Source: Lachnospiraceae bacterium
GTDB lineage: Bacteria; Bacillota; Clostridia; Lachnospirales; Lachnospiraceae
Direction: 5' to 3'
Length of the DNA: 50,885 nt
Assembly: GCA_022800815.1 (NCBI GenBank)
Contig: JAAWRC010000025.1
Span: 1 to 50,885 of the forward strand
The notes under the pieces are model-generated. The model did no database searches. It was not told where the DNA came from and was given only the letters and a program-made list of their open reading frames with translations. Below, one piece after another: positions 34,977 to 50,885 of the stretch. Both the position numbers and the translations under genes were made by a program. Numbering within the stretch: the stretch's first letter is position 1; each line of letters begins with the position of its first letter.

Positions 34977-35006
34977 AGTCTTCTCCTTTTCTTTTTCTGT
35001 TTCCCA

Positions 35007-35218
35007 GGTAATTGCGAAACTTGAAATTGCAGAATCGATTCTGGCGATTGCGTCCATCCAAAGCCTGCAGCGCCAAACATTCCAACGAGCCCATAAGCGC
35101 AGAAAACACTCGGGCAGAGGCCCTCCTGTTTTCCATGGTCTCCTTTCCATGGCGCAGAGGGCTTTTCCTGGAAGCAATCGCCAGAATCTTTCCCATATTT
35201 GTCATTTTCGCAATTACC
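35007..35218. repeat. Dispersed palindromic repeat, full copy A
   Basis: 212 bp bounded by perfect 13-bp inverted ends GGTAATTGCGAAA / TTTCGCAATTACC. A second inverted pair, GATTCTGGCGATTGC(G/T)TCC, lies inside (35037-35055 and 35170-35188, 18 of 19 matching). Its left 80 bp align without gaps to 50696-50775 and its right arm to 19002-19033. One frame is open right through it on the minus strand (84 codons from 35205), but the matching stretch in the copy at 50696 contains a stop, so coding is doubtful. Size and ends suit a MITE-like or REP-like element. No transposase is nearby. Confidence 0.82.
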
Positions 35219-43893: not shown

Positions 43894-44742
43894 TCACTGC
43901 ATCTGATAGCTCAGCTCTTCCCCCTCCGGCACCATGCTGTTTAACACCCTCGCCGCATGGACGCCGGACTCCCGCCGCAGAACCTCCCGCTCTGCTTCCA
44001 TGAAGGACTCCCCCGCAGGTTCGGCGATCTTGAGGACCACCGACTTCGGCTCCTCGTACTGGTACGCCTCCGACCAGGTGCTCTCCGGGATAAGCGTCAA
44101 CCCACCGCCCGTCCGGGGCTCCGGGGAATCTACCACGCCCACCACCTGGTAAAGTCTTCCCTCCACCTCGACGGTCCCCCCCACCGGGTCCTTCCCGGGG
44201 AACAGAGCTTGGGCCGCCCGACCGTCGAGAAGGGCGGCGTGCCGCCCCTCCTCCACGTCCCGCTCCGTGAGCCCCCGGCCCTTCTCCACCCGGAGGTCGG
44301 CGGCGGCCAGGAAGTCCGGCCCGATCCCCAGGACGCTCCCTCCCTGGAGTGCGTCCATCCCGTGGCAGACGGTTCCGTTGTCCCGCCGGTAAAAGGCAGC
44401 CACCGCCGCTGTCCCTTCCGCTTTCTCAAGCTCCGGCACCAGCCGGTCCGCCAGGGGGACCAAGGCCGGAGCAGAGAACTCCGTGGAGAAGTCGCAGGGA
44501 AACCCGTCCGGCAGACAGAGGGTCACTTCCACGGAACCGCTCCCGAATGCCTTCCCGCCTCCTTCCCCGGCTTCTTCCGTTCCCGCTTCCCGGTCACCTT
44601 CCGTTTTCCCGCCCTTTATCGTCTCCTGCTTCCCTTCCGTCTTCCCTTCCCGCCTGCCCAGGCGGAAGGACACAAATCCGGCAAGGGCGGCAAGGAACAA
44701 ACCGAGGAGGACGACGAGAAGCAAGTGTCTTTTTTTCTTCAC
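43894..44742 (-). CDS. Free-standing MacB-type extracellular (core) domain with one membrane anchor
   Basis: 282 residues. One N-terminal helix (about residues 6-24), a charged Glu/Gly/Lys linker to about 65, then a ~210-residue extracellular domain. Its segment GRGLTERDVEEGRHAALLDG, then AQALFPGKDPVGGTVEVEGR and YQVVGVVDS, is the hallmark of the periplasmic core domain of MacB/FtsX-type ABC permeases, but the three C-terminal membrane helices of such permeases are missing. Starts at GTG overlapping the previous stop (GTGA), with GGGAGGAG. Last gene of the exporter operon, and its partner is probably the adaptors upstream. Confidence 0.82.
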   Translation of the reverse strand: MKKKRHLLLVVLLGLFLAALAGFVSFRLGRREGKTEGKQETIKGGKTEGDREAGTEEAGEGGGKAFGSGSVEVTLCLPDGFPCDFSTEFSAPALVPLADRLVPELEKAEGTAAVAAFYRRDNGTVCHGMDALQGGSVLGIGPDFLAAADLRVEKGRGLTERDVEEGRHAALLDGRAAQALFPGKDPVGGTVEVEGRLYQVVGVVDSPEPRTGGGLTLIPESTWSEAYQYEEPKSVVLKIAEPAGESFMEAEREVLRRESGVHAARVLNSMVPEGEELSYQMQ

Positions 44743-46922
44743 GGTTCCGTCTCCTCCCATTCTTCCGTCTCCTCCGTTTTGATCTCCATCTCTTCCCCAT
44801 AGACGATCCGGGCTTCGGCCCCCTCCATACCGGAGGCTTCCTCCGGATAAGCCAGGTAATCCTCCCCGGTGAGCCCGGAGAGTATCTCGATCTCCTGGCC
44901 CCCGAAGCTCCTCCCGGTTTCCACCGGCCGTTTTTCCAGCCGGCCATCCTCGTCCATGGCGTATACGAAGGCATCCCTTCCCTCGTAGAACAGGAGGCCG
45001 TCCGGAAGGACGATGCCTCCCGCCGCTTCCCCGGAAGGTTTTGTCCCCGTCTCATTCTCCGCAGAGCTTTCTCCCAGAAGCATCCGGGGAATCAGAATCT
45101 CCACCGCATCCCCCGCCCGGACTCCTTTTGTCTCCGATGGGGTAGCCGTAAAGCGGTAATAGCTCATGGCTGGGTTTCCCGCACCGTTCCCGAATGCGTT
45201 CCCGGTGAAAGGGACCGCCGTCCCGGCCAAGGTTCCTCTCCCGCCGGACGCATCTCCCGGCCTGTCGTTTCCGGCCGGTGCGCCGTCATCTGTCCCGCCC
45301 CCATGAAATACGTCACCGTCCGTCCCGCCTCCCGGTTCTTTCTCCACGGACTGGAGGACGGCCTCGAAGGAGACCTCCTTCTCCCGGACTCTTGCCGACA
45401 CCGAAAGCCGGTCACCTGGCCGCAGGGCCGCCGCCAGCACCTCGTTCACCTGGCCGCAGAGGGTGTTCCCGCTCTTTCCCTGGATGGTCAACACCGGCTG
45501 TCCCAGTCTTGCGGCCTCCCTCGGATCCCTTGCCTCTCTCACCTGGCCGGCCGTCTCCGCCGTCAGGATGTTCTCCTCAATCTCCCGTCTCAGATTTTCC
45601 GCCTGCAGCTCATTCTTCCGGATGGCCAGTTCCAGGTTCTCGTACTCCAGGCTCCTCTCCCGGATGGCCCGGGCCAGCTCTTCCTTCGTGTAGCCCCCGG
45701 GCTCGCTCTCCAGCCCTCCCAGTGCGCCCTCCAGCGCCTCGTCGTCAAAGGGCCCGTCGAACTCCGGTGGTGTCTCCCCTGTGTCCGGGATGCTCTCCTC
45801 CACCTGGGAAGGGCTTTCCTCCGTCCCACCGCTTTCCGGCACGCTCCCCTCTGTCCCGGAAGAAGAATCGGACTCCCCCGGCCGGTCGGAGGAAGATTCT
45901 CCCTCGCCGCCTTCCCATCTCCCGGAAGAGCTCTCCTCCGGAGAACTGCCCTCTTCCTGGTCTTCCGAGGAAGGTTCCGTCCCGGAGGAGGGCTCCGTCC
46001 CGGAGGAGGTCTCCCCCTGGACGATCTCCTCATAGACCTTTCCGTCAAAAGTCCAGACAAATAGGGGAGTCTCAGCACTCCCACCGTCCTCAACGATGAC
46101 GAACCGGCCACAGAGCTTCATCCGCACCAGCATGGCAAGAACCTCCGGGGCCACCTCCCCGCCCTTCTTTACATAGTAGACATAAGGGTCCTGCGCCGTC
46201 CCGGTTCCGCCGGAGGGGACGGTGTCCCCGTCGACCCGGTCATGGACCTCGGGGATGCCGTCACGGCCCTCCACCGCCACGAAACCCTCCAGGCTTTCCT
46301 CTGCGGAGACGGGCGCCGTCCGCCCCTCCCCGGCAGAGAGAAACATCCGGCCGGTCCCGACAAAGGCCACTACGGGGCCTCTCTTCCCGGCTCCGTCTCC
46401 AACCGGGACCACTCCGGCTCTCCCCCCGTTCCGGTCCCGGTCAGCGACCAGTGCGGTACCCCCGCCCGGCTCCTCCCCGGTCCGCCCAAGGCCGTCCGGC
46501 CTGGGCTTCGTCGCCCTGAGCATCCCGATGAAGGCACCCAGCCGCTCCAAGTAGACCCTCTGGTTGGCGAGGCTTTTCTCCAGGCCGGAAAGCTCCTCTG
46601 AAAGGGCTGTACAGTCGTAGCGGAGCAGGGGCGTCCCGGACTCCACCAGCTGCCCCTCCTTCACATAGAGCTCCACCGCCGGCTTCCGACTGTCGTAATA
46701 ACAGGCCGTCAGGGAACCGGACTCCATCACGGCGGATACCGCCACCGCATCGGACCACTTCTTATCCCGAAGCCCCTCCACCGAGTAGACGGGGACCTCC
46801 TCCCCGCCCGCCGGCATGAGCCTCTTGATTCCCACGCCGGAAAGAAATCCCGCCAGAAGGAGAACCGCCGCACTGCCTCCCGCAAGAAGCCTCCTCTTTC
46901 CCGTCCACGCCTGTTTTTCCAT
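44739..46922 (-). CDS. Large HlyD-like membrane-fusion protein with inserted region
   Basis: 727 residues. Membrane helix at 11-31, then a split adaptor: N-terminal barrel/lipoyl half (VEGLRDKKW... to VKEGQLVESGTPLLRYD), an unusual globular insert ~136-302, an acidic low-complexity stretch ~303-410 with two SSGTEP repeats, a coiled coil ~411-450 and the C-terminal lipoyl/barrel half. The C-terminal part (FVYAMDEDGRLEKRPVETGR) matches that of the smaller adaptor upstream. Follows it after 63 bp containing a terminator-like hairpin. Such adaptors bridge an ABC exporter and substrate outside the cell. Low complexity could be a spacer across the wall. Confidence 0.82.
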   Translation of the reverse strand: MEKQAWTGKRRLLAGGSAAVLLLAGFLSGVGIKRLMPAGGEEVPVYSVEGLRDKKWSDAVAVSAVMESGSLTACYYDSRKPAVELYVKEGQLVESGTPLLRYDCTALSEELSGLEKSLANQRVYLERLGAFIGMLRATKPRPDGLGRTGEEPGGGTALVADRDRNGGRAGVVPVGDGAGKRGPVVAFVGTGRMFLSAGEGRTAPVSAEESLEGFVAVEGRDGIPEVHDRVDGDTVPSGGTGTAQDPYVYYVKKGGEVAPEVLAMLVRMKLCGRFVIVEDGGSAETPLFVWTFDGKVYEEIVQGETSSGTEPSSGTEPSSEDQEEGSSPEESSSGRWEGGEGESSSDRPGESDSSSGTEGSVPESGGTEESPSQVEESIPDTGETPPEFDGPFDDEALEGALGGLESEPGGYTKEELARAIRERSLEYENLELAIRKNELQAENLRREIEENILTAETAGQVREARDPREAARLGQPVLTIQGKSGNTLCGQVNEVLAAALRPGDRLSVSARVREKEVSFEAVLQSVEKEPGGGTDGDVFHGGGTDDGAPAGNDRPGDASGGRGTLAGTAVPFTGNAFGNGAGNPAMSYYRFTATPSETKGVRAGDAVEILIPRMLLGESSAENETGTKPSGEAAGGIVLPDGLLFYEGRDAFVYAMDEDGRLEKRPVETGRSFGGQEIEILSGLTGEDYLAYPEEASGMEGAEARIVYGEEMEIKTEETEEWEETEP

Positions 46923-46957
46923 GCCATACACCTCACTTTATTTTCCAGAAAATCAGG

Positions 46958-46986
46958 AAAAAAATCGGATTTTCCACCGCCGATTT
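46958..46986 (-). terminator. Terminator-like hairpin inside the exporter operon
   Basis: On the minus strand AAATCGG and CCGATTT (7-bp stem, 46986-46980 and 46968-46962) are followed by seven T. It overlaps the stop of the smaller adaptor gene and lies 40 bp before the larger one, so it may reduce expression of the downstream genes. Confidence 0.6.
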
Positions 46987-48242
46987 TATTCCCCGAAATC
47001 CGCCTCCTGCCCTTCCTCCAGGAGGGCGGACGGCCACGCCAGGTAGTCCGTCATGGCGAGTCCCTCTCTCACCTGCCAGGCGCCGTGCCGGTCATTGTAG
47101 GCGCCGAGGGTGACCGGGCGCTTCTTTAGCCGTCCGTCCTCCCCGGCGGCCCACACCCAGGGCTTCCCGGCGGCATCTTCCACGTATCCCTCCGGCAGAA
47201 GGATCTCCGCCGTCTCAAGGTCCCCCTTCGCAGTTTCTGCCGCAGCCCCTTCCTGATCTCCAACCTGATCTTCTGCCTTTTCCGCCGGGCTTTCCGGTTC
47301 CGTCACGGTCCCGTCCGCACCGTCTTCCGCCTCCGGCGCTCCGCTTCCTCCCGCCGCCCCTATGGCATCCGCCTTCTCAATGTAGACGTGCTGCCCCGGC
47401 AGGAAGGCGCCCGCCCCCGTGACGGTCCCCCTCACCGGATACAGGGAGACCCTGGCGGCCCCGGAGACCGTCTCACTCTCCGACGAGCTTCCGGTCCCGA
47501 CCTGGTCCACGGTTCCGGGGAGGACGAGACTCCCGTCCCGGGCGGCGACCGCCACCGCATCCCCGGCCTGGAAGTCCGCAAGCTCCTCCTCGCCGGCCTG
47601 GAACGAGAACTCGTACTCGTCCTCCGGCACGATGGACAGGCTCCCGCCCTCCGGATCAATTCCGGCCACGGCCCCCCGGCAGGGGGAGGTCACTTCCCGC
47701 TCCGCAAGCTTTTCCTCCAGGGCGGCGATCTCCCGGTCTTTCCGGGAGAGATCGTACTCCTTCCGGGAAAGTTCCGCCTCCGCATTCAGGATTTGCAAAT
47801 CGTAGTCCCCCCTCCGGGCCGCCTCCGCCTGGCCCCGTTCCCGCTTCAGGGTCTGAATCTGGAGTCCGGCGCTCTCCGCATCAAAGACCAGCTGTTCCCG
47901 GTCCAAAAGGAGCTGTTCCTTTTCCAGCAGGAGGGAGGCGTTGTCGTAGGCGGCGAGTACGGCCCCCTCCTCCACGATGTCTCCTTCCCCCACCAGGAAG
48001 CCCGCCGTCTCCCGGCCAGGGTCCAGACGCACCATCACCGCCTCTTTCCGGGAGAGAACCCCCAGGAACCGGCTCCTTATGGCTTCCGACTCCGCATATC
48101 CGGTCAGGGACGCCACGGACTGCACCGGCACCCTCTGCTCCCGGCTCCGTTTCGGGATGGAGGGCGTGCCCAGGTAGAGCCCCAGGCCGGCTGCCGCCAG
48201 GAACAGGAGCACCGCCGCAAACACGATCCATTTCTTCTTCAT
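46986..48242 (-). CDS. HlyD-like membrane-fusion protein (smaller)
   Basis: 418 residues. Membrane helix at 5-24, barrel, lipoyl half with VEEGAVLAAYDNASLLLEKE, coiled coil through ~residue 190 and AEREVTSPCRGAVAGIDPEG, the other lipoyl half, then C-terminal barrel ending in LAMTDYLAWPSALLEEG. Typical MacA/YknX adaptor shape for an ABC exporter. Overlaps the permease gene by 4 bp (ATGA). The acidic region EAEDGADGTVTEPESPAEKA near residue 305 is an extra linker. Confidence 0.85.
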   Translation of the reverse strand: MKKKWIVFAAVLLFLAAAGLGLYLGTPSIPKRSREQRVPVQSVASLTGYAESEAIRSRFLGVLSRKEAVMVRLDPGRETAGFLVGEGDIVEEGAVLAAYDNASLLLEKEQLLLDREQLVFDAESAGLQIQTLKRERGQAEAARRGDYDLQILNAEAELSRKEYDLSRKDREIAALEEKLAEREVTSPCRGAVAGIDPEGGSLSIVPEDEYEFSFQAGEEELADFQAGDAVAVAARDGSLVLPGTVDQVGTGSSSESETVSGAARVSLYPVRGTVTGAGAFLPGQHVYIEKADAIGAAGGSGAPEAEDGADGTVTEPESPAEKAEDQVGDQEGAAAETAKGDLETAEILLPEGYVEDAAGKPWVWAAGEDGRLKKRPVTLGAYNDRHGAWQVREGLAMTDYLAWPSALLEEGQEADFGE

Positions 48243-50662
48243 GACAAAGCACCCTCCTCATAGGTCTGGATGTAGAACCATGCGCCCGCCGCAAGGGCCA
48301 GGCACCAGTAAACAAGCCGCCCCGCCGTCAGCCGGTACATGGAATATCCGGTGAGCAGCGGGAGCAGGGAAAAGTACGGTTCCCCCGTGAGCCCCATCAG
48401 ATACAGGAACACCGGAAGCAGGAGCAGGAGACTTCCCACGAGAACCGTGTGGACCAGGTTCCCACTCCGTCTCGACAGCCAGAGGGTAAGCCCCACCGCC
48501 GCCGCCATCCCCAGGTAACGGGAAAGTCCCACCAGCGCCAGATACCCCCACAGGGGAATGTTAAAGGGAACGTCGTCCAGCAGGGGAAGGCTCTTTAAGG
48601 GGGCGGTGAGCCCCGCCGTCCCGTAGGCCCGGAACAGGGTCAGGTAACGGGGGAGGAAGGCGACGACAAAGGCGAGGGTCCCGTACAGGAGTCCGGCCAG
48701 GTACTTCCGTCTGCAGACGCCTCCCCCGCCCCGGACGCAGGCCCTCTGCAAAAGCTCCACCCGGCTGGTCCGCTCCACGGAAAAAACCGCCGCCAGCCCC
48801 ACCACCAGGAAGAAGGCCAGCTTCCCGGCATCCATGACGTCCGTCCGCCGTCCCTGTTCGTTCAGAAGCGCCTCCCAGCCGGAGGCGTAGAACAGTTCCG
48901 CCTCCGTCCCCTCCCGCACCTGATTCAGAACGTGCTCGTACTGGGCCAGGGCGGTCCCAAACCCGGTGCGGGCGTTCTGGGACGCCTGCAGCTCCATCTG
49001 GGCCGCTTCCCGCTCCTCGTAGGAGAGCTCCCCGGCCGCGTAGGCCTTCGCCGCCCTCGCCGCCCTGCGCTCCATGTCGTCAAACCGTTTCTGCTCCTCC
49101 TGATAGCGGACGGCCGCCTCCTGCAGGGGGACCCCCTCCGCCCAGCCGACGTAATGCCGGTAGAACAGCTCCTCCGGGGACTGGTAGACCTTGAAGTCCC
49201 GGTAACTGCTCCACTGGAGAAGGACAAACAGAAGGAGCACCAGGCCGGCCCGCTCCATGACCACGATCTTGTAAAGCTCCTTCCCGAAAAGTCCCACCCG
49301 GACCCTCCGTGCGCCCGACGCCCGGCTCCTCCCCCGCCGTCTCTTCCGGAACGCCTTCCACCTGGAAAGGAGACGGTTATCCGCACTGAGGGCGGAAGCC
49401 TCCCTCACGTAGAGGAACAGGGCGAAAAAGCAGGAGAGTCCCGCCGTGAGGACCGCCGTCCCGAGGACCGCCGGAATCACCTCCACCGGATACCCGAACA
49501 CGTTCATGTTCCGGTAGTTCCCCAAAAACCAGGAGGCGTCCGCCATGCACACCAGGTTCAGCACCTTGAGGGGGCTCAGGTAAGAATGAAGGCCGACGGT
49601 CAGATAGAGGACGGACTCCAGGAGAATGGCCCCCGCCGGGACCAGGCATGCGCTGACACCGTTTTTGAACACGGTGCACAGACAAAACAGCAGGGAGGCG
49701 AAGGGGAGTGCCGCCAATACCTTCGCCGCCAGGAAGACTCCCAAATACCGTCCCGCCGTCATGGCATAGGGGGAGGCCAGCATTCCCCGGATGCTCTGGA
49801 CGGGCCGGGAAAGGTCCCCAAAACCCAGAAGCCGCTCCGAGAGGAACAGGTTCGCCCCGTAGAAGACCAGCGTGAGGCACAGGGAACAAAGGAGCATCAC
49901 CAGGAGCTTTGCCGCTATGGTCTCCAGATATCCCCTCCGGGTGGGCTTTATGAGGAGCAGAGTCCCCTCCTCCCGCTCCCCCACCAGCATGGAGAGGGCG
50001 AGAATCAGGAGGGCCGCCAGGAGCAGCACGTCCGTCAGCGGAAACTCCGTCGCCAAAAGGATTCCCTCCGAATCGGCCGCCGGGAGCACGGTCCCCCGAA
50101 GGTGGGCGTAGACCGGCGGAGTCCGCTCGATGTTCCGGTAGGAGAAGGTGTCCGGGTTCCCGAAGAGAGACGAGGAAGTCATGATCTTCGCCTCCTCGTC
50201 GATTCCCGCCAGGTAATCCCCGTAGTGGGCCACCGCCGAGACCTGGGCGAGCACGTCGTCGACCAGTTTCTGCTCGCTGTAAAAGTTGGTCAGATAGGAG
50301 AGGTAGCTCCCCTCCGGGTCCAGATCCGGATACTTCTGAAAGACTTCCTGGTTCCGCTCCCGAAACGCCCGCCGTTCCTCCTCGTTCCACTCCCCGTAGC
50401 CGTCGGTCCACTCCCGCCAGACAGACACCGCCGAGAGAAGCTCCTTCTTTTCCGCCAGTTTTTCCTCCGCCTCCAGGGCCGTTAAACCCGCCAGATCTTC
50501 ATAGACCCGGCCCACGTCCTTCCTGGTATAGCTCCAGTCAATCCGCTGTCCCGACTCCCGGTACAGCATCAGGCCGTTAAAGAGGAACAGGAACAGGAGC
50601 AGGGCCGGAACCAGCCGCTTCCCCAGCAACTTTTTCGATTCGTAATAAATGAGCCGTCCCAT
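48239..50662 (-). CDS. Large ABC-2 type permease with two transmembrane sets
   Basis: 807 residues. First membrane helix about residues 16-34, a ~170-residue extracellular region, then about five helices to residue ~420. After a basic linker (RKRRRGRSRASG) the pattern repeats: helix near 475, extracellular helical region with QEEQKRFDDMERRAARAAKA, and further helices to the C-terminus. It resembles two fused ABC-2/Fea-type halves. AAGGAGGGG precedes the ATG. It is separated from the ATPase gene by 120 bp containing a dispersed repeat. Substrate unknown. Very G+C-rich. Confidence 0.82.
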   Translation of the reverse strand: MGRLIYYESKKLLGKRLVPALLLFLFLFNGLMLYRESGQRIDWSYTRKDVGRVYEDLAGLTALEAEEKLAEKKELLSAVSVWREWTDGYGEWNEEERRAFRERNQEVFQKYPDLDPEGSYLSYLTNFYSEQKLVDDVLAQVSAVAHYGDYLAGIDEEAKIMTSSSLFGNPDTFSYRNIERTPPVYAHLRGTVLPAADSEGILLATEFPLTDVLLLAALLILALSMLVGEREEGTLLLIKPTRRGYLETIAAKLLVMLLCSLCLTLVFYGANLFLSERLLGFGDLSRPVQSIRGMLASPYAMTAGRYLGVFLAAKVLAALPFASLLFCLCTVFKNGVSACLVPAGAILLESVLYLTVGLHSYLSPLKVLNLVCMADASWFLGNYRNMNVFGYPVEVIPAVLGTAVLTAGLSCFFALFLYVREASALSADNRLLSRWKAFRKRRRGRSRASGARRVRVGLFGKELYKIVVMERAGLVLLLFVLLQWSSYRDFKVYQSPEELFYRHYVGWAEGVPLQEAAVRYQEEQKRFDDMERRAARAAKAYAAGELSYEEREAAQMELQASQNARTGFGTALAQYEHVLNQVREGTEAELFYASGWEALLNEQGRRTDVMDAGKLAFFLVVGLAAVFSVERTSRVELLQRACVRGGGGVCRRKYLAGLLYGTLAFVVAFLPRYLTLFRAYGTAGLTAPLKSLPLLDDVPFNIPLWGYLALVGLSRYLGMAAAVGLTLWLSRRSGNLVHTVLVGSLLLLLPVFLYLMGLTGEPYFSLLPLLTGYSMYRLTAGRLVYWCLALAAGAWFYIQTYEEGALS

Positions 50663-50695
50663 CTGCCCCCTCCTTCTATTTCCGTCAGGCCGTCA

Positions 50696-50775
50696 GGCGA
50701 TTGCGAAAGTTAAGATTTCAGAGCAGATTCTGACGACCGCATCCATCCAAAGCCTGCCACGCCAAACATTCCAAC
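50696..50775. repeat. Dispersed palindromic repeat, partial copy B
   Basis: 80 bp align without gaps to 35007-35086 at about 65 matching positions. CATCCAAAGCCTGC and CGCCAAACATTCCAAC are identical blocks. Only the left half is present. It lies 8 bp after the ATPase stop codon and 33 bp before the permease start. Confidence 0.8.
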
Positions 50776-50782
50776 AGTCTGT

Positions 50783-50885
50783 TCATTCCCGGAAGCAGGA
50801 GAGGTACACGTCCTCCAGGCCCGGCCGCATCTCCCTGGCCTCATACCCCTCCGGCCTGTCCTCACAGATCACCCGCACGAACAGG
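50783..50885 (-). CDS. ABC transporter ATPase, C-terminal end only
   Basis: The last 34 codons of a gene running off the right edge: FVRVICEDRPEGYEAREMRP, then GLEDVYLSCFRE and TGA. The P-x-LEDVYL motif is the usual end of ABC-2-type exporter ATPases. It is the first visible gene of the exporter operon and almost surely energises the permease at 48239-50662. Confidence 0.75.
   Translation of the reverse strand, partial: LFVRVICEDRPEGYEAREMRPGLEDVYLSCFRE

Follow-up and report, generated by a model that had tools for sequence, protein, structure and literature searches.

Which transport machine is encoded by an operon that places two adaptors of the HlyD/MacA type, and the core domain of MacB made as a separate protein, behind a permease and an ATPase of a different ATP-binding cassette (ABC) type? 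This question is raised by the right end of a 50,885-nucleotide stretch of DNA from a Lachnospiraceae bacterium (contig JAAWRC010000025.1 of assembly GCA_022800815.1), which was analysed as a whole and is called the window here; it is contig C18 of a 3.4-Mb genome in 75 contigs (labels beginning with G, C and L denote our genomes, contigs and loci). All operon genes of the window lie on the minus strand, in the order ATPase, ABC-2 permease with 12 transmembrane (TM) helices, adaptor 1, adaptor 2, and a single-pass protein with the MacB periplasmic core domain (PCD). We refer to this five-gene cassette as the hybrid, and use "classical" for a gene quartet of the same bacterial family that contains a complete MacB. 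Alignments and trees show that, at the level of sequence, each adaptor and the free PCD derive from their respective counterparts in this quartet, whose own ATPase and MacB TM helices 2-4 (TM2-4) are gone. The reading we favour, with a probability of roughly 0.55, is that of a hybrid, "motor-swapped" exporter, in which the detached PCD would dock the adaptors and the ABC-2 pair would supply the power.

The free core-domain protein and the quartet parts

The last protein of the operon had been predicted to be a detached, single-pass MacB core domain. Indeed, it matched PF12704 (MacB_PCD) with 60.4 bits (cut-off: 27) and has one predicted TM helix, and the domain search found no PF02687 (FtsX domain) in it. 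Comparison with the MacB of the bacterial family in hhalign gave a probability of 99.9 (E 4.8e-34, 28% identity) from residue 73 to the end of the protein, which lies where the second stalk helix of MacB, leading to TM2, begins. A PCD profile matched MacB (3ftj, E 4.6e-16), YknZ (5f9q, E 1.9e-11) and Spr0695 (5xu1, E 3.3e-8) in the Protein Data Bank (PDB).

Mean identity between hybrid and classical sequences was 0.11 in the N-terminus with TM1, 0.17 in Porter 1, 0.31 in Sabre and 0.38 in Porter 2, against 0.87, 0.63, 0.50 and 0.52, respectively, among the classical sequences (Porter and Sabre borders were taken from PMC5985334 and transferred by alignment; L163, L150 and L165 were omitted). 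The distance from the TM helix to a fixed alignment column is 33-57 residues in 10 hybrid proteins versus 26-29 residues in 22 classical ones, and a loop of 16-17 columns is absent from the free PCD beside the position that aligns with the guard helix of Spr0695. Judged by alignment, the parts connecting the MacB head with its membrane drive have been lost or remodelled; best preserved are Sabre and Porter 2.

Both adaptors matched TIGR01730 (E 1.4e-9 for adaptor 1 and 3.2e-12 for adaptor 2), in both cases below the curated cut-off. Adaptor 1 gave a profile match to MacA (4dk0, E 3.7e-7) and adaptor 2 to Spr0693 (5xu0, E 1.2e-5). They are two different adaptors in tandem, as predicted (mutual hhalign probability of 98 over 209 columns). 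The insert at the hairpin tip of adaptor 2 consists of a small domain and a Ser/Glu/Pro-rich stretch and occurs in classical second adaptors as well; L134/L145 lack the small domain. An adaptor-like match in L104 was discarded, as it is a DUF5050 protein.

The presence of two adaptors had been taken as a mark that distinguishes this operon, which proved wrong. Two adaptors are the rule in the Lachnospiraceae quartet, in which the order adaptor 1, MacB-type ATPase (~230 amino acids (aa)), adaptor 2, MacB (~418 aa) was found in 23 of 24 loci fetched around MacB matches (L090, L136-L138 and L148-L167; five from this genus and 19 from other genera). No name or description of this two-adaptor quartet was found in the open-licence PubMed Central (PMC) literature. 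The genome of the window has a quartet of its own (G000:C55, L090:7636-13020), with a MacB that carries both PF12704 and PF02687. In a joint adaptor tree of 59 sequences, a single branch (100/100) separates the adaptors by position, with all first ones on one side and all second ones on the other, whether hybrid or classical (the tree was built without the long-branched L163, L165, L150 and L166 and without the split second adaptor of L071). Where the quartet has its ATPase, the window has only 54 bp between the adaptors. By this tree, the two predicted adaptors are inherited from the quartet, not added. Since the tree is joined by a PCD alignment that ends at the stalk helix, the cassette can be described as the quartet minus its ATPase and MacB TM2-4, set behind an ABC-2 pair. 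This suggests that the head-and-adaptor part of a MacB-type pump is separable from its motor.

One quartet locus, L158:5206-9414 (G232), has a complete MacB, yet no ATPase between its adaptors; the nearest MacB-type ATPases elsewhere in G232 are 51% identical to that of L090.

The ABC-2/ABCA motor and the operon layout

The original prediction named no ATPase and had to be amended. The C-terminal end of the ATPase gene lies in the window; codons 1-286 are found on contig C16 (L009:7372-8229) and continue in frame to the stop at 50783. The last 91 bases of the window are identical to the last 91 bases of C16; the ATPase gene thus appears to be joined to the permease operon in this genome, a joint that rests on this contig overlap. 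The ATPase matched ABC_tran with 114 bits. Its top PDB relatives are ABCA nucleotide-binding domains, NosF ranks lower, below ABCB chains, and no MacB chain was present among the best 60 of 65 matches. Judged by these relatives, the operon ATPase is of the ABC-2/ABCA type, not of the MacB type.

The large duplicated ABC-2 permease of the original prediction was borne out. It matched PF12679 with 27.4 bits, just above the cut-off of 27.2, its halves align with each other (hhalign probability of 67, E 5e-5, 162 columns), and hydropathy gave 11 peaks for the window permease and 12 for its homologue in L134. Long non-membrane stretches follow the first and the seventh peak, corresponding to outside domains after TM1 and TM7 in a layout drawn from hydropathy only. 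The permease profile had no significant match among PDB sequences. A full-length permease homologue is present in 8 of the 11 genomes of the genus, the identical set that holds the free PCD. Sequence comparison shows the ATPase and the predicted 12-TM permease to be one module.

Three further loci with related parts were considered. At L205:9614-16493 (G301), a second, adaptor-less copy has the order BlaI, M56, small secreted protein, lipoprotein, ATPase, permease; we rejected it as a pre-fusion state, since its permease lies inside the hybrid clade and adaptor loss is simpler. At L071:297-8971 (G007), an ABC-2 permease and an ATPase stand directly before a whole quartet with a second adaptor split in two frames. 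This locus was rejected as an ancestor with both motors adjoining, because its permease groups elsewhere. A further cassette copy at L206:1301-11021 (G307) has interrupted ATPase and permease frames and, close to the end of its contig, a fragment of adaptor 2.

Gene overlaps had been proposed as a sign of co-production. They are present between adaptor 1 and the permease (4-bp ATGA) and between adaptor 2 and the PCD gene, where the last reading frame encodes either 288 aa from ATG 44760 (22-bp overlap) or 282 aa from GTG 44742 (GTGA overlap), but not between the two adaptors, for which the spacing grows to 63 bp if the alternative start ATG 46922 of adaptor 2 is used. In the window, 120 bp separate the ATPase stop from the permease start, versus ~12 bp in L070 and L134. 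A copy of an ~80-bp dispersed repeat (50694-50775) lies here, inside the operon; a second copy is at 35005-35086, and there are 35 matches elsewhere in this genome. The RNA fold of the repeat was no better than that of shuffles, and promoter and terminator scans gave counts not above shuffles (promoter scan of L009: 1 versus 0.8).

Table 1 Features of the hybrid operon in the window, and small secreted proteins at the L loci indicated
Feature	Position	Strand	Evidence
ABC-2/ABCA-type ATPase gene, C-terminal end	50783..50885	-	91-base contig-end identity, open frame
Single-chain duplicated ABC-2 permease, 807 aa	48239..50662	-	PF12679, hydropathy, halves align
Adaptor 1, HlyD/MacA type, 418 aa	46986..48242	-	TIGR01730, profile match MacA 4dk0, tree
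Adaptor 2, HlyD/MacA type, 730 aa from GTG	44739..46931	-	TIGR01730, profile match Spr0693 5xu0, tree
Insert at hairpin tip of adaptor 2	45747..46517 (borders approximate)	-	alignments
Free PCD protein: one TM helix, hydrophilic linker, MacB core domain	43894..44760	-	PF12704, hhalign, alignment, PDB profile matches
Core-domain part, residues 73-288, aligning with MacB PCD	43897..44544	-	hhalign columns
Small proteins, 115-153 aa, signal-peptide-like start	L009:5348-5719; L205:14195-14542; L206:3206-3583; L207:6531-6953; L208:2281-2697; L209:1035-1496		

Conservation of the cassette and its possible mode of action

The free PCD was found in 10 copies in 8 of the 11 genomes of the genus. The same gene order does recur elsewhere: all five genes stand in order at nine of these ten loci, the tenth (L130) being a 3.2-kb contig. 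Hybrid PCDs (10 sequences), first adaptors (9) and second adaptors (9) each form a single clade (100/100). Holders of the hybrid include Fusibacillus kribbianus, Candidatus Paralachnospira avium and an uncultured Lachnotalea. Hybrid and classical MacB occur together in seven genomes; G095 (99% complete) carries the hybrid without a classical MacB, and G300, G304 and G306 have classical MacB and neither hybrid permease nor free PCD. This distribution shows the five predicted hybrid genes to be kept together, independently of the resident classical MacB.

Among the matches listed in the sampled genomes, no free PCD of the conserved form was found outside the genus. A search of 299 genomes of the family with the window protein gave at best 77.7 bits outside the genus versus 142.5-625 bits for the free copies. 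Among the matches listed for the PCD profile, the best outside the window's own genome reached 126.1 bits (344 genomes of the order) and the best outside the family 63.9 bits (299 genomes of the phylum), versus 441 bits for the window protein. Frame length does not tell free from joined PCDs, the free copies being in frames of 274-385 aa. Prediction gave 4-5 TM helices for the PCD protein of the 20 further classical loci L148-L167 (19 loci from other genera, L167 from this one) and of G007. Homologues joined to a permease, which had been named as a possible objection, do exist, but the window copy belongs to a separate conserved lineage. The short PCD frames at L191-L194 have a MacB-type N-terminus, unlike that of the window protein; L191 (226 aa) and L192 (200 aa) terminate early within their contigs and are thus short one-TM PCD frames elsewhere, L193 and L194 reach contig ends, and L195 has three TM helices after the PCD. 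Searching genome contigs with a single PCD sequence found no relative, and searching them with the PCD alignment found nine loci, the free copies seen before; the PCD search of viral contigs gave no match.

Ratios of nonsynonymous to synonymous change (dN/dS), obtained by a simple counting method that leaves out pairs with saturated synonymous change, were 0.17-0.39 for the PCD (34 of 45 pairs usable), 0.09-0.23 for adaptor 1 (14 of 15), 0.10-0.19 for the permease (21 of 21) and 0.04-0.13 for classical MacB (10 of 10). They speak for purifying selection, weakest on the PCD. We consider it very improbable that the PCD gene is a functionless leftover of a decaying MacB. Such a leftover would fit the wide occurrence of permease-joined homologues and the fastest change among the genes compared, but not ten one-TM copies in eight genomes, ten compared reading frames without internal stops, 48 invariant columns among nine sequences, a dN/dS in the range given above and a clean end at the domain border. 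A simply broken MacB was therefore rejected, as the original prediction had done. There is likewise only a slim chance that the cassette is an accessory to the resident classical quartet, its free PCD and extra adaptors joining or competing with the latter in trans. The parts are homologous, and seven of the eight hybrid genomes also hold classical MacB; however, the hybrid-only G095 and the three classical-only genomes led us to judge this explanation unlikely, and the hybrid genes form one operon with the ABC-2 pair, permease and PCD being found in the same eight genomes.

Unlikely, too, is a membrane-spanning transducer that exports nothing, in which motion of the PCD and adaptors, driven by the ABC-2 pair, would control wall enzymes or lipoproteins as is known from FtsEX or LolCDE. 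Relatives of MacB perform such tasks according to PMC5985334, and the gene directly before the ATPase encodes a DUF5050-like lipoprotein in seven of nine hybrid loci and a solute-binding protein in one more (L133; L131 has neither). Lipoprotein or solute-binding genes were, however, also found in 16 of 37 adaptor-less ABC-2 loci, at most six genes ahead of the permease. Moreover, the stalk and TM helices that carry the motion are absent, and a linker as long and hydrophilic as this one would transmit force poorly to the PCD.

In the exporter that we prefer, a single TM helix and a flexible linker would anchor the PCD, which would no longer be movable as MacB's bellows and would serve as the plate where the adaptors still dock. 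Together with the adaptors, the PCD would make up a channel over the permease extending into the wall, while the ABC-2 pair would burn ATP, take the substrate from or across the membrane and feed it into the channel; the most likely cargo would be a lipid or a peptide of hydrophobic or amphipathic character. In vitro, the isolated outer domain of YknZ binds the adaptor YknX (PMC4887032), and therefore a detached PCD can in principle dock an adaptor. In MacAB-TolC, two adaptor membrane-proximal domains contact Sabre and one contacts Porter per MacB. We see about even odds that the MacB head and the two adaptors are a self-standing docking-and-channel module on an ABCA-like pump, which sends membrane substrates via the adaptor tube into or across the monoderm wall. 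That the parts form one export or envelope machine, as originally proposed, is probable.

Several observations weigh against this exporter. The postulated contact of the PCD or adaptors with the ABC-2 permease is its weakest link. Among 39 loci around ABC-2 permease matches, some of them cut by contig ends, adaptors were present only at L070 (a hybrid) and L071, and the L205 permease nests inside the hybrid clade (98/100) with no adaptors or PCD adjacent; the ABC-2 motor can thus do without these parts. The identity pattern fits docking and does not single it out, because Porter 2, which PMC5985334 assigns to the mechanics of MacB, is no less conserved than Sabre. Of the PCD, adaptor 1, the permease and classical MacB, the PCD changes fastest. 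Finally, the MacB_PCD fold that had been expected is supported by the profile matches to MacB, YknZ and Spr0695 but hardly by the AlphaFold2 model, which was poor (nine sequences; predicted local distance difference test (pLDDT) 52.2, predicted TM-score (pTM) 0.33), with residues 150-210 best (block means of 66-74). Foldseek with this model returned MacB, YknZ, Spr0695 or the related permease domain 3is6 in the first 24 PDB rows (best E 5.4e-8), with a bad global fit (TM-score 0.22-0.34 by query). Since the model is weak, the fold assignment rests on sequence profiles.

Gene neighbourhood and relation to known systems

Upstream of the ATPase, the window genome has BlaI and M56 genes and a gene for a 123-aa secreted protein, relatives of which occur in BlaI-M56 cassettes at L205 to L208. 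This small-protein family is found in such cassettes at five of six loci and had no match above cut-off in Pfam or NCBIfam; a weak match of one of five small proteins to TIGR01653 (lactococcin 972; E 0.057, 13.7 bits, cut-off: 32.1) is only a lead. YknWXYZ, AS-48EFGH and Spr0693-0695 are reported to have a role against membrane-active peptides (PMC5985334), and by analogy a regulated defence or immunity role against such peptides would fit the hybrid.

If the proposed exporter is correct, the mechanical drive of MacB is not needed for adaptor-based export, and the hybrid takes apart what MacB combines, holding the adaptor ring and driving it. With it, one could test if the core domain acts chiefly as a docking plate and which role adaptors have in bacteria that lack an outer membrane; it also brings up the common two-adaptor MacB quartet of the Lachnospiraceae.

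The original statement that the machine matches no named system holds for the combination of PCD and adaptors with an ABC-2 pair, of which no description was found in titles and abstract openings of the open-licence PMC literature; it does not hold for the adaptors and the PCD, which are quartet parts. Lachnospiraceae are regarded as monoderm. YbhGFSR is a diderm ABC-2 pump with an HlyD adaptor and an outer-membrane duct, and we know of no detached PCD protein in pumps of this kind. With ABC-2/ABCA-type exporters the hybrid shares the ATPase type and the permease, the latter only just by PF12679. The adaptor-less ATPase and ABC-2 pairs of the family have the same ATPase type, permease family and layout, and lipoprotein neighbours, but lack adaptors and PCD at 37 of 39 loci. 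YknWXYZ of Bacillus, Spr0693-0695 of Streptococcus pneumoniae and AS-48FGH of Enterococcus likewise combine a MacA-type adaptor and a MacB-type outer domain in a monoderm (PMC4887032, PMC5768738 and PMC5985334). These MacB/YknWXYZ-type (type VII) systems differ in having one adaptor, an outer domain integral to a 4-TM permease that carries an FtsX domain at its C-terminus, and a MacB-type ATPase; the hybrid shares their core domain and MacA-type adaptor. Finally, the Lachnospiraceae quartet contains counterparts of both adaptors and the PCD in identical order, the first and second adaptor lineages included, whereas the hybrid has neither the MacB-type ATPase between the adaptors nor the TM2-4 of a complete MacB and is, in our reading, driven by an ABC-2 pair.

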